Positions 45,401 through 51,400 of a stretch of DNA of 64,000 bases are shown piece by piece; position 1 is the stretch's first letter, and each line of letters opens with the position of its first letter. This DNA comes from Prunella strophiata (lineage: Eukaryota; Chordata; Aves; Passeriformes; Prunellidae), in NCBI GenBank assembly GCA_036583965.1, contig JAZBQD010000034.1, positions 9,695,040-9,759,039 of the forward strand. Reading direction: 5' to 3'. Under the pieces are notes generated by a model. It did no database searches. It was not told the DNA's origin and was given only the letters and a program-made list of their open reading frames with translations. The translations under genes and the position numbers were made by a program.

Positions 45401-48400
45401 TTTGGGAGCATAACTTCCTGAGAGGGCCCCTGCTGACACCCCATCCCTGCTCTGGGGTCTGTAAGTTTTCTTACTCGTGTGCCTACATGAATGAAAGGGG
45501 AATATCCCTTCAGGTGGGGGTTTGACTTAATTTCTACCTGGAAATGGGCCCCCAGCCCTCACTGCCATCTGCTCTGGTGGAGCACATTGGCTGTTGCTGC
45601 TGGAAGAGGTGCTGGAGGGTCTGTCCTGCTGGGTCTATCTCTAGTGAGGCTGAGGTGAGCCAGCACAGAAATCATCAACCAGCCCTTGCCCCAAGCCAGG
45701 GACCCCTCTGCCCCGCTCTGCCCAGCTGGCAGAGGAGCTGTGATGAGGTGGATTGAAAGGATGAGGCACAGAGGCCGTGTCCCCGCTCCGGCTCCCCCGG
45801 CTGCCGGGAGTGCGGGATGCGGCCGGGAGGAAGCGCCCTGCCAGGAGCGTTTAATTAACCTCCCTCGGCGTCTCTCCCAGTTCCACTGCTGACCTCCGAA
45901 GGCAAAACTGAAACGCAGAAAAGAGTGACAAGCTCCTTTCTGACCTGGAATTAAACCAGCATGTCGCAGGATCCCTCCCACAGGGCTGCCAAAGCGGCGC
46001 AGCCCCGCACTGAGCCCCTGAGCACCGACCCCTGCCCCTCTTCAGGGATGCAGATAATTTTCTTGCCTCAAAGCCAAAGGTTGGGCTCTGGGCAGGGTGT
46101 GCAGGGCTGGGCTCAGCCCTTGGCTCCTGCCCGTGTACCCCAGCTGGCAAACGCCCCCTGGTTTTCAGGGCTGCCTGGAGCAGCAGATTGAGCCGCCCTC
46201 CCTTTGCTCCCTTCTGCCTCCGCTCGCCTCCTCCGGCAGTTTGCCCCTCTCCATTCTCTCCTGGGGTTTGTGCTGTCCCTGCGGTGCCCAGCAGTCCCCT
46301 GGAGAGGCTTCACTGGGGTTCTTTTCCCTGCTCTGCCAGCTGGAATCACCAGCGACTTCAGCTAATGGTCTGGAACCCTCTGTTTCTGCAGTACTGGCAG
46401 GGAGGATGGCATTTCCCCAGATACAAAGGGCAGGCAGGAGAGAAGATGAGAGAAGGCTGCAAAACATCCTCAGTCATGGTCTACTTCTTTAGACATCCTC
46501 CTTGCTGCCAGCACAGAGAGGCCAGGAGGAGAAAAGGTGGAGATTTTGGAGGAAAAATGGGGTTTGGGTGTGTGCAGGAGCTGAGTTTGTGGGGTAGGAG
46601 AGGCTGTAACCCACCTCCCCAGTGAAGTGCTTGCCCCACTGGTCACACTGTCCCTCCATCCCATCCCCATCACCCACCCCACAATGGACTTTAGTTGTGA
46701 GAACAGCCTGAACTCCAATTCTTCCTTGTCACCCTGGGAAGGTTGTCACCCATCGGGGGAAACCATGTGGGGAGCTGAATGAGGCCACCAGGGTTATCTC
46801 AGCCTTCAGCTCACAGCCTCCAGCACAGGCTGCAAAACTCCCCCCAAGCCCCAGGAGCCTCTGGGACAGGATGCTGAGCCCTGGGGAAGGCTGCAGCCCT
46901 GCAGAGAAGGGGCTGTGCCACTCTCACGGCTCAGTGGTTGCAGACACCCAGGTTTGGTTTGATGCAGAGCGAGACTCTGGGGTGTGAACCTGCAAGGTAG
47001 CAGTGATAGCTCTGAGAGACAGCAGCCCTAATTATATCCAGCTTGTCCTGGCTGCTGAGTGCCTGCACAAAATGCCTCCAGTCAGGCACCTCCATGCAGG
47101 GTGGCTGGGTCAGGTGTGAGCAAGGAGAGAAGGACAGAGGAAAAAACCAAAATTATTTGCAGATTCATTCTGAGCTGTCCTAGGGCGGAGGATTTTTTTG
47201 GCTCAGCTCAACTTGCTTTGCCCAGAGCTCTGTTGTCTCACATCCCCAAGCCTGCTGAAAGCTGGGGAGTGGGACCTGTGCTTCCTGTTTGGAGACAGGC
47301 ACTGGTTCTGAGATGGGGTTCTGCAGTGTAGGAGAGCAAAGCCCTGGTGTGGAATGGCTGGTGGTGGTGAGGGGGAGTGAAGTCCATAGCCTCATTTCAT
47401 CCTCACACCTCTCACTGCTTCACTCTGCCTTCAGTTGCTCAAATTGTACCATGCAAGGCTGGCAATGTCCTGGCTGATTGCCTGTGCCTGGGTGAATAGG
47501 AGAGAAAGGAGCAGTGCTGCCAGCAAGGATAACCCAGGCAAATCCAGGGTATTTGGGAGGTGATCAGAGATTGTTCAGCAAAGAGAAGGGAGAGGAGAAA
47601 GTAGAAGGATCATTCCCAAACCCAAGATTGCCCATGGCATCAGTGCCTGAGGGGCTTAGCCAGGGACTGCATCTGTGCTGGGATTGTGCCCAACTTGTGC
47701 TCTGATGCAGAACTTATCCCAAAATCCATAACTCTTTAGCAAAAAGGAAAAAAAAAGCTGCTCTGTCCCCCCGGGTTTCCTGTGCCAACACCTCCTCTGA
47801 GAGCCATTGATTCCCTTCCTCAGATCCTAACTTAGGGCCGTTGCCTCTTTCAGATCACCAGAAGCTGGAGCGAGAAGCCCGGATCTGCCGTCTCCTGAAG
47901 CACCCCAACATTGGTAAGTGCACCCTAAACCCCAACATTGGTAAGTGCACCCTGCACCCCAACGTTGGTAAGTGCACCCTAAACCCCAACATTGGTAAGT
48001 GCACCCTGCACCCCAACGTTGGTAAGTGCACCCTGCACCCCAACGTTGGTAAGTGCACCCTGCACCCCAACGTTGGTAAGTGCACCCTGCACCCCAACAT
48101 TGGTAAGTGCACCCTGCACCCCAACATTGGTAAGTGCACCCTGCACCCCAACATTGGTAAGTGCACCCTGCACCCCAACGTTGGTAAGTGCACCCTGCAC
48201 CCCAACATTGGTAAGTGCACCCTGCACCCCAACATTGGTAAGTGCACCCTGCACCCCAACATTGGTAAGTGCACCCTGCACCCCAACGTTGGTAAGTGCA
48301 CCCTGCACCCCAACGTTGGTAAGTGCACCCTGCACCCCAACATTGGTAAGTGCACCCTGCACCCCAACATTGGTAAGTGCACCCTGCACCCCAACATTGG

Positions 48401-51400
48401 TAAGTGCACCCTGCACCCCAACATTGGTAAGTGCACCCTGCACCCCAACGTTGGTAAGTGCACCCTGCACCCCAACATTGGTAAGTGCACCCTGCACCCC
48501 AACATTGGTAAGTGCACCCTGCACCCCAACGTTGGTAAGTGCACCCTGCACCCCAACGTTGGTAAGTGCACCCTGCACCCCAACATTGGTAAGTGCACCC
48601 TGCACCCCAACATTGGTAAGTGCACCCTGCACCCCAACGTTGGTAAGTGCACCCTGCACCCCAACGTTGGTAAGTGCACCCTGCACCCCAACGTTGGTAA
48701 GTGCACCCTGCACCCCAACGTTGGTAAGTGCACCCTGCACCCCAACATTGGTAAGTGCACCCTGCACCCCAACATTGGTAAGTGCACCCTGCACCCCAAC
48801 ATTGGTAAGTGCACCCTGCACCCCAACATTGGTAAGTGCACCCTGCACCCCAACATTGGTAAGTGCACCCTGCACCCCAACATTGGTAAGTGCACCCTGC
48901 ACCCCAACGTTGGTAAGTGCACCCTGCACCCCAACATTGGTAAGTGCACCCTAAACCCCAACATTGGTAAGTGCACCCTAAACCCCAACATTGGTAAGTG
49001 CACCCTGCACCCCAACATTGGTAAGTGCACCCTGCACCCCAACATTGGTAAGTGCACCCTGCACCCCAACGTTGGTAAGTGCACCCTGCACCCCAACATT
49101 GGTAAGTGCACCCTGCACCCCAACATTGGTAAGTGCACCCTGCACCCCAACATTGGTAAGTGCACCCTGCACCCCAACATTGGTAAGTGCACCCTGCACC
49201 CCAACATTGGTAAGTGCACCCTGCACCCCAACATTGGTAAGTGCACCCTGCACCCCAACATTGGTAAGTGCACCCTGCACCCCAACATTGGTAAGTGCAC
49301 CCTGCACCCCAACATTGGTAAGTGCACCCTGCACCCCAACATTGGTAAGTGCACCCTGCACCCCAACATTGGTAAGTGCACCCTGCACCCCAACATTGGT
49401 AAGTGCACCCTGCACCCCAACATTGGTAAGTGCACCCTGCACCCCAACATTGGTAAGTGCACCCTGCACCCCAACATTGGTAAGTGCACCCTGCACCCCA
49501 ACATTGGTAAGTGCACCCTGCACCCCAACATTGGTAAGTGCACCCTGCACCCCAACATTGGTAAGTGCACCCTGCACCCCAACATTGGTAAGTGCACCCT
49601 GCACCCCAACATTGGTAAGTGCACCCTGCACCCCAACATTGGTAAGTGCACCCTGCACCCCAACATTGGTAAGTGCACCCTGCACCCCAACATTGGTAAG
49701 TGCACCCTGCACCCCAACATTGGTAAGTGCACCCTGCACCCCAACATTGGTAAGTGCACCCTGCACCCCAACATTGGTAAGTGCACCCTGCACCCCAACG
49801 TTGGTAAGTGCACCCTGCACCCCAACGTTGGTAAGTGCACCCTGCACCCCAACATTGGTAAGTGCACCCTGCACCCCAACATTGGTAAGTGCACCCTGCA
49901 CCCCAACATTGGTAAGTGCACCCTGCACCCCAACATTGGTAAGTGCACCCTAAACCCCAACGTTGGTAAGTGCACCCTGCACCCCAACATTGGTAAGTGC
50001 ACCCTGCACCCCAACATTGGTAAGTGCACCCTGCACCCCAACATTGGTAAGTGCACCCTGCACCCCAACATTGGTAAGTGCACCCTGCACCCCAACATTG
50101 GTAAGTGCACCCTGCACCCCAACATTGGTAAGTGCACCCTGCACCCCAACATTGGTAAGTGCACCCTGCACCCCAACGTTGGTAAGTGCACCCTGCACCC
50201 CAACATTGGTAAGTGCACCCTGCACCCCAACATTGGTAAGTGCACCCTGCACCCCAACATTGGTAAGTGCACCCTGCACCCCAACATTGGTAAGTGCACC
50301 CTGCACCCCAACGTTGGTAAGTGCACCCTGCACCCCAACATTGGTAAGTGCACCCTGCACCCCAACATTGGTAAGTGCACCCTGCACCCCAACATTGGTA
50401 AGTGCACCCTGCACCCCAACATTGGTAAGTGCACCCTGCACCCCAACATTGGTAAGTGCACCCTGCACCCCAACATTGGTAAGTGCACCCTGCACCCCAA
50501 CATTGGTAAGTGCACCCTGCACCCCAACATTGGTAAGTGCACCCTGCACCCCAACATTGGTAAGTGCACCCTGCACCCCAACATTGGTAAGTGCACCCTG
50601 CACCCCAACATTGGTAAGTGCACCCTGCACCCCAACATTGGTAAGTGCACCCTGCACCCCAACATTGGTAAGTGCACCCTGCACCCCAACATTGGTAAGT
50701 GCACCCTGCACCCCAACATTGGTAAGTGCACCCTGCACCCCAACATTGGTAAGTGCACCCTGCACCCCAACATTGGTAAGTGCACCCTGCACCCCAACAT
50801 TGGTAAGTGCACCCTGCACCCCAACATTGGTAAGTGCACCCTGCACCCCAACATTGGTAAGTGCACCCTGCACCCCAACATTGGTAAGTGCACCCTGCAC
50901 CCCAACATTGGTAAGTGCACCCTGCACGACAGGGCCACTGGGACAAGCCATGTGGCTCCTGTCCCACAAATATTTCAGTTCCAAAAAAGACTGTCAGCTT
51001 CCATCTGTCTCGGGCACACGGCTGCGTGGCAGGTCCCCCCTTCACTGCCGGGGTGCCGGACCCTGCAGCATTCCCCAGCCTCTGCTCCAGCAGCACCAGG
51101 AGCTGTCCTGCAGGGGTCCCTCCACGGTCTCCAGCCTCCTCTTTGCACCAAAATACCTGCGGGGATTGCTGAGACCTGAAGGAACACACTGCAAAGTGTG
51201 AGAGTAGGAAGAAATACTAAACCCGGAGGAACTCACCGCGTGAGACCTGCAGGATGGCACCTGCAGGTTCCCCAGGTTCCCAGGCTCCCCAGGTTCCCAG
51301 CTTGGCCACAGCTCTTTCCCACCCTGTCTTTCACCCTTCCCTCTCCATCACCTTCCTGTGGGGCTGGCAAGGTCTCCAAGGACCAAAACACCTCAGCTGT

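Follow-up and report, generated by a model that had tools for sequence, protein, structure and literature searches.

What does it signify when the 5' splice site of a conserved kinase gene is repeated 112 times at the start of the intron that it opens? This question is raised by a window of 64,000 nucleotides from the songbird Prunella strophiata (GenBank assembly GCA_036583965.1, contig JAZBQD010000034.1, positions 9,695,040 to 9,759,039 of the forward strand), the whole of which was analysed and to which all positions given here refer. In this window, the end of exon 3 of CAMK2A, the gene of CaMKII alpha, runs into a tandem array in which the exon-intron boundary itself is the repeated unit. 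The array belongs to a known kind of repeat, the donor-embedding minisatellites or "mirages", and the features on which the argument turns are as follows.

47900 to 50923, plus strand: 112 tandem 27-bp units, of the form GCACCCCAACATTG (exon) followed by GTAAGTGCACCCT (intron); direct reading, Tandem Repeats Finder (TRF) and unit splitting.
47900 to 47926, plus strand: unit 1, which holds the authentic exon 3 donor (cut after 47913); unit splitting and spliced frame.
50924 to 50927, plus strand: partial 113th copy, GCAC, 4 nt; direct reading and unit splitting.
47854 to 47913, plus strand: CAMK2A exon 3, 60 nt, its last 14 nt being the exonic half of unit 1; tblastn, Protein Data Bank (PDB) match and spliced frame.
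47914 to 53671, plus strand: CAMK2A intron 3, with the array making up 3.0 of its 5.8 kb; spliced frame.
53672 to 53726, plus strand: CAMK2A exon 4, 55 nt; spliced frame.
47811 to 51179, plus strand: stop-to-stop open frame of 1122 codons, in the frame of exon 3 and spanning the whole array; unit splitting and list of open reading frames.

TRF reports a single array (47900-50927) with a period of 27, 112.1 copies, 98% matches and 0% indels, while splitting at the anchor GGTAAGTG yields 112 units from 47900 to 50923, all at a spacing of 27 and followed by the right flank GCACGACAGG. Unit 1 straddles the junction, with 14 nt from the end of exon 3 and 13 nt from the start of intron 3, and the motif G/GTAAGT (the slash marks the exon-intron junction) is present in 112 of 112 units. 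An earlier, sequence-only reading of this DNA had described an array of exactly 112 x 27 bp with the real exon 3 donor in its first unit, that donor having been multiplied in place, and an unbroken G/GTAAGT throughout; the anatomy of unit 1 and the column counts confirm each of these claims, with coordinates that had been one base off. The copy number is the value of one assembly. A run of 112 perfect-length units cannot be ascribed to chance, the placement of the array at a donor being the weaker point.

The same reading knew of no usual repeat class that multiplies a functional donor, which proved wrong, as published cases exist in ABCA7, CBS and the amphioxus mirages. Here, too, the units lie head to tail (27 bp x 112, within a class range of ~10-160 bp), the first unit spans an exon-intron junction and includes the genuine donor of a coding exon, and the units are homogenised inside the cluster. 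They fall into four types (A 87, B 20, C 4 and D 1), 87 of the 112 being identical. Variation is limited to columns 1 and 2, which read AA in five units, and column 11, which reads G in 21; the other 24 of the 27 columns are invariant, including all seven positions of GGTAAGT. Over 3,024 bp no variant is private to one unit, and the single D unit combines two variants present elsewhere. The order at the 5' end is A C B C B B B. The G-bearing units are clustered (eight adjacent pairs against a shuffle mean of 3.7, p 0.013), with 15 of the 21 lying within units 1-42, and a search for higher-order blocks gave its best autocorrelation at lag 13, which is not significant against shuffles (p 0.07). 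No match to Rfam models at gathering score was found in the 64-kb window.

The exons of the host gene were placed by tblastn with a CaMKII alpha protein query, after which their edges were corrected. CAMK2A lies on the plus strand. Thirteen of its exons are present (39365-61795) and, once spliced, read as a single open frame of 328 codons, with AG acceptors at exons 2-13 and GT donors at all 13. The translation of exon 3 is identical, at 19 of 19 residues, to a CaMKII alpha chain in the PDB. The C-terminal part of the query gave only weak tblastn matches in the window, and the later exons therefore probably lie beyond its end. Loss of exon 4 by skipping would shift the frame and bring a stop at codon 118 of the joined exons; exon 3 could be skipped in frame.

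What would be translated if a donor other than the first were used? Read from donor 1 in nine-residue steps, 111 of the 112 steps are GKCTLHPNI (86), GKCTLHPNV (20), GKCTLNPNI (4) or GKCTLNPNV (1), and the last runs out of the array as GKCTLHDRA. When donor 2, 3, 4 or 112 is joined to exon 4 (1, 2, 3 or 111 extra units), the exons that follow are still read in frame, and since every unit is 27 nt long the donors between 4 and 112 are in frame as well. With each further donor the kinase domain would gain nine residues, inserted in frame between HPNI and VRLHD, a point that the sequence-only reading had missed. A random unit would stay open in frame with a probability of ~0.26; because this is about one chance in four, the open frame was rejected as a mark of selection and is regarded as a consequence. 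On the minus strand, two frames (47827-51216, 1129 codons, and 47855-50974, 1039 codons) are also open through the array, because the unit has no antisense stops in them.

The HPNI/VRLHD junction, judging by kinase alignments, is presumably the alphaC-beta4 loop. In the available portions of the reports on two other kinases, in-frame insertions of 1-7 residues in this loop or the adjoining helix end activate EGFR (PMC7961794, PMC9953181), and the F100A change in the loop of PKA alters inter-lobe coupling with catalytic efficiency towards Kemptide kept (PMC11196109). For a nine-residue insert in CaMKII, loss of function is a safer guess than activation. We consider it decidedly improbable that donors 1, 2, 3 and onward form an in-frame ladder, giving CaMKII alpha with 0, 9, 18 and more extra residues, with which a lineage of songbirds could tune a synaptic kinase; the activating EGFR insertions are what suggests such tuning.

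The unit peptide GKCTL occurs in none of the 242 proteins listed from three protein searches. For the array frame, a 548-residue query was used with candidates limited to 0.55-1.75 times its length; 7,991 were scored, giving two weak matches, both without the unit peptide. Among the best 120 of 7,995 CaMKII matches, HPNI is followed by VRL in 102, an altered HPNI is followed by VRL in 17, and another insert is present in one, although these matches were clustered at 90% identity, which may hide short inserts. That one, a Gouldian finch protein (P0157), carries its insert between exons 3 and 4 that maps to window positions 52622-52750, in intron 3 beyond the array; the peptide encoded there is 93% identical to the insert and one codon longer in our window, and the frame is open in both birds. 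This insert looks like a gene-prediction exon and is uninformative as to an array in the Gouldian finch. The exact type A unit had no matches in viral or in prokaryote contigs, in neither of which bird DNA is expected.

How might such an array have arisen? On the left flank, the exon reads CTGAA and then GCAC, and after the last unit GCAC is followed by GACAGG. The first pair of units could have come from a single tandem duplication between GCAC words spaced 27 nt apart. As it left the original exon and its donor unharmed, this duplication may have been tolerated; slippage or unequal exchange would then have enlarged and homogenised the array. Type A is probably the ancestral unit, since units 1 and 112 are both of this type. 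The array looks young or often homogenised, because its variation is limited to columns 1, 2 and 11 and includes no private variants. If neutral substitutions accumulate at 1.5-3e-9 per site and year, the lack of any private substitution over 3,024 bp suggests that the array has turned over within ~0.3-0.7 million years; this is a rough bound, in which gene conversion and errors in the consensus are left out of account. The GCAC microhomology was rejected as a special cause: all of the 12 other CAMK2A donors in the window have matches of 4-6 nt between exon (from -30) and intron (to +40), the 12-nt value at exon 3 being a product of the array itself.

Expansion driven by hairpins was likewise rejected as a demonstrated cause. 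Five-unit folds compared with dinucleotide shuffles gave z values of -2.66 (plus strand) and -4.76 (minus strand) as RNA and of -1.25 and -2.96 as DNA, and a B-rich stretch reached -5.33 as plus-strand DNA. However, RNA folds outside the pure array also lie below shuffles, both in the unique intron past it (z -2.01) and in exon 3 with the first units (z -2.10). Furthermore, 400 27-mers drawn at random from the window were arrayed in tandem and folded, and 24% of these arrays did as well as unit A on the plus strand, both as RNA and as DNA, which makes this unit ordinary there; the proportions on the minus strand were 5% (RNA) and 8% (DNA), by which unit A is no more than somewhat unusual on that strand, and unit B fell within the best 1.5-5%. 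Hairpins are thus possible as a helper of expansion.

Are the invariant donors a sign of selection? The sequence-only reading had stressed the intact GTAAGT of every unit. The seven donor columns are all invariant, as are 17 of the other 20, and three variable columns would miss all seven donor columns by chance 39% of the time. With 24 of the 27 columns invariant, the intact donors are not surprising and give no evidence of function or of selection, and selection on the donor was rejected as unproven. The pairing of the exon 3 donor with U1 over seven nucleotides (-1 to +6), to which the same reading had drawn attention, holds; it is not unique within the gene, in that the exon 13 donor also pairs over seven. 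With a U1 duplex energy of -10.2, the exon 3 donor ranks 4th of the 13 CAMK2A donors in the window; it is of ordinary strength for this gene, and the idea of a uniquely strong donor was rejected. Non-random placement fared no better: when the 15 arrays of the window (22 TRF rows merged) were placed at random, one of the 13 donors was covered in 49% of trials, in large part because of the 3-kb length of the CAMK2A array. For a randomly placed founder of 27 bp, the probability of covering a donor is 0.0047.

With respect to splicing, we think it likely that the array is a boundary-spanning donor minisatellite, born of tandem duplication, in which splicing takes place mainly at donor 1 and the donors just behind it are used in frame at a low level. 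By analogy with the variable number tandem repeat (VNTR) in intron 18 of human ABCA7, donor 1 would serve the majority of transcripts, and donor 2 or one of its near successors a minor fraction. Transcripts from donor 2 would add GKCTLNPNI (unit 2) at HPNI/VRLHD, with further nine-residue blocks from later donors, and would escape removal as frameshifts since the unit is nine codons without a stop. The length of the array may in addition alter the inclusion of exon 4. Several points weigh against this picture. What it says of donor usage rests on analogy. The GCAC match, being of a common type, is permissive only and leaves the expansion at the exon 3 junction unexplained. Predicted folding does not single out donor 1, which is 42% unpaired in a 20-unit fold where the seven donor bases are 38-43% unpaired on average. 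Between comparable competing donors the intron-proximal site is favoured, according to the part of the source available (PMC6002489), which would predict longer exons and not donor 1. Finally, in the accessible text on ABCA7, the alternative transcripts taken together exceeded the canonical one in 90% of Brodmann area 10 (BA10) cases and 31% of hippocampus cases, mainly through exon 19 skipping (PMC5954066), so that mostly normal splicing is not guaranteed. The intron-proximal preference, together with a frame that is open in all units, would suit a situation in which downstream donors win and a large share of transcripts carry several units, yielding a CaMKII alpha ladder with 9n extra residues. 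We regard this as unlikely: at the 25-nt spacing of ABCA7, retention of one unit is reported in only 2 +/- 1% of transcripts and is unaffected by VNTR size (PMC5954066), and GKCTL is absent from the listed proteins, within the limits set by the clustering and by a list of the best 120 of 7,995 CaMKII matches. In ABCA7 it is skipping of the next exon, exon 19, that rises with VNTR length, and in brain it is given as 45 +/- 10% in BA10 and 29 +/- 12% in hippocampus (PMC5954066). An equivalent length effect in CAMK2A, whose main consequence would be a lower output through copy-number-dependent skipping of exon 4, agrees with the 55-nt length of that exon and with the stop that its loss would bring; since unit sequence and gene differ from those of ABCA7, we hold it to be quite unlikely.

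Of the effects that the sequence-only reading had suggested, competition for exon 3 definition and slower splicing may apply. It seems very unlikely, however, that the array is maintained by selection as a U1 platform, with donors that attract U1 small nuclear ribonucleoprotein (snRNP), secure the definition of exon 3, delay splicing or prevent premature polyadenylation. The intact G/GTAAGT of all 112 units speaks for such a platform; the non-donor columns, however, are almost as invariant as the donor columns, and the donor is of ordinary strength. U1 telescripting elements are defined by cryptic polyadenylation signals close downstream of U1 sites. Of AATAAA and ATTAAA, the two hexamers tested, neither occurs in the array and one copy is present in the rest of intron 3, at 53268 and thus 2.3 kb downstream; by these hexamers the array has no nearby downstream signal, which leaves the proposed suppression of premature polyadenylation without support. 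In vitro, complexes that held two U1 snRNPs, and complexes that held at least two SRSF1 molecules, became a larger fraction of the total when a consensus 5' splice site was added (PMC8724738), which favours the platform. The U1 footprint, on the other hand, covers 23 nt of exon and 12 nt of intron (Sharma 2011, quoted in PMC6002489). As this exceeds the 27 nt from one donor to the next, U1 bound at one donor should keep U1 off the adjacent ones, and ~56 at most could be occupied together, so that the capacity implied by "112 equivalent U1 sites" in the sequence-only reading was overstated. Long near-identical arrays are often mis-sized in assemblies, and the array or its length might have been made by the assembler. 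We find this hardly credible: the four unit types follow one another with no significant periodicity, and at either end the array passes cleanly into unique sequence, which does not look like a looped path, although evidence of this sort does not fix the true copy number. Splicing mostly at donor 1, with a little in-frame use of its neighbours, is the reading that we favour.

Other features of the window may be noted here. A coding exon of ARSI (arylsulfatase I), with a sulfatase domain, lies at 30321-31799, upstream of CAMK2A and on the same strand; it is 99% identical over 96% of the query to its counterparts in the snowfinch Pyrgilauda ruficollis and the whydah Vidua macroura, the other matches among the best 120 of 1,244 being at most 98% identical. 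By itself this would point to a bird as the source of the window, most likely a passeroid songbird. A 7-bp array of CAGCACA (~107 copies, 86% matches, 37771-38509) ends 856 bp upstream of the CAMK2A start codon, and an array of 17 GGGCT copies (56678-56761) starts 31 bp from the end of CAMK2A exon 8.

The gene concerned serves synaptic plasticity, here in a songbird, and the array falls within its kinase domain; the human donor-embedding VNTR in ABCA7 is linked to disease risk. The array offers a natural test of choice among identical splice sites, as its competing donors are the same over G/GTAAGT, follow at equal distances and all keep the frame. Since all donors are in frame, mature mRNA would report that choice without the loss of frameshifted products, and the unit variants, in their 5' order, help to tell which donor was used.

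How does it compare with the known cases? No report of the CAMK2A array was found by searches of the open-access literature in which CAMK2A itself was not a search term, and the array may therefore already be in print. Passages of PMC4329672 and PMC6692358 had no bearing on units that carry a donor. The ABCA7 VNTR has a 25-bp unit whose first two bases are the donor of exon 18, and its alleles of 298-10,678 bp hold ~12 to 427 units, a range that includes the 112 of CAMK2A; the VNTR is associated with altered splicing and disease risk (PMC5954066). Both arrays are C-rich, reach kilobase length, abut an exon and hold a working donor in their first copy. They differ in that the ABCA7 array starts at the GT of intron 18, the available text describing no exonic part, whereas the CAMK2A unit has 14 exonic nucleotides, and in that the 25-bp unit is out of frame, such that donor 2 leads to a frameshift, whereas 27 bp is in frame.

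The VNTR of human CBS, c.1444_1467+7(16_21), has 16-21 units of 31 bp (PMC2630376). According to its Human Genome Variation Society (HGVS) name, the unit runs from the exon into the first seven bases of the intron, and each unit thus carries an exon end and a donor, as in CAMK2A; its 31 bp are, however, not a multiple of three, and its copies are fewer than the 112 of CAMK2A. The amphioxus mirages (Adh3, globins, TnC and PGBD5) are tandem duplications of exon-intron boundaries, and Adh3 data and reverse transcription PCR on the globins suggest that regular splicing is undisturbed, as far as the available parts of these papers extend (PMC3087553, PMC3902484). They share with the CAMK2A array the duplicated boundary, the splice signals in many units and homogenisation within the cluster. 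Length instability is a feature of mirages, whereas the CAMK2A array is known from one assembly. In mirages the duplication can involve the donor side or the acceptor side, the host is a cephalochordate and not a vertebrate, and the dimensions differ: the BflGb6 haplotypes have 3 and 6 units of 150-160 bp, and the Adh3 units measure 10-72 bp, against 112 x 27 bp in CAMK2A. What is distinctive in CAMK2A is a unit length divisible by three, with every donor in frame, and a site within a kinase domain, and it is the in-frame unit at this site that makes the array notable within a known kind.

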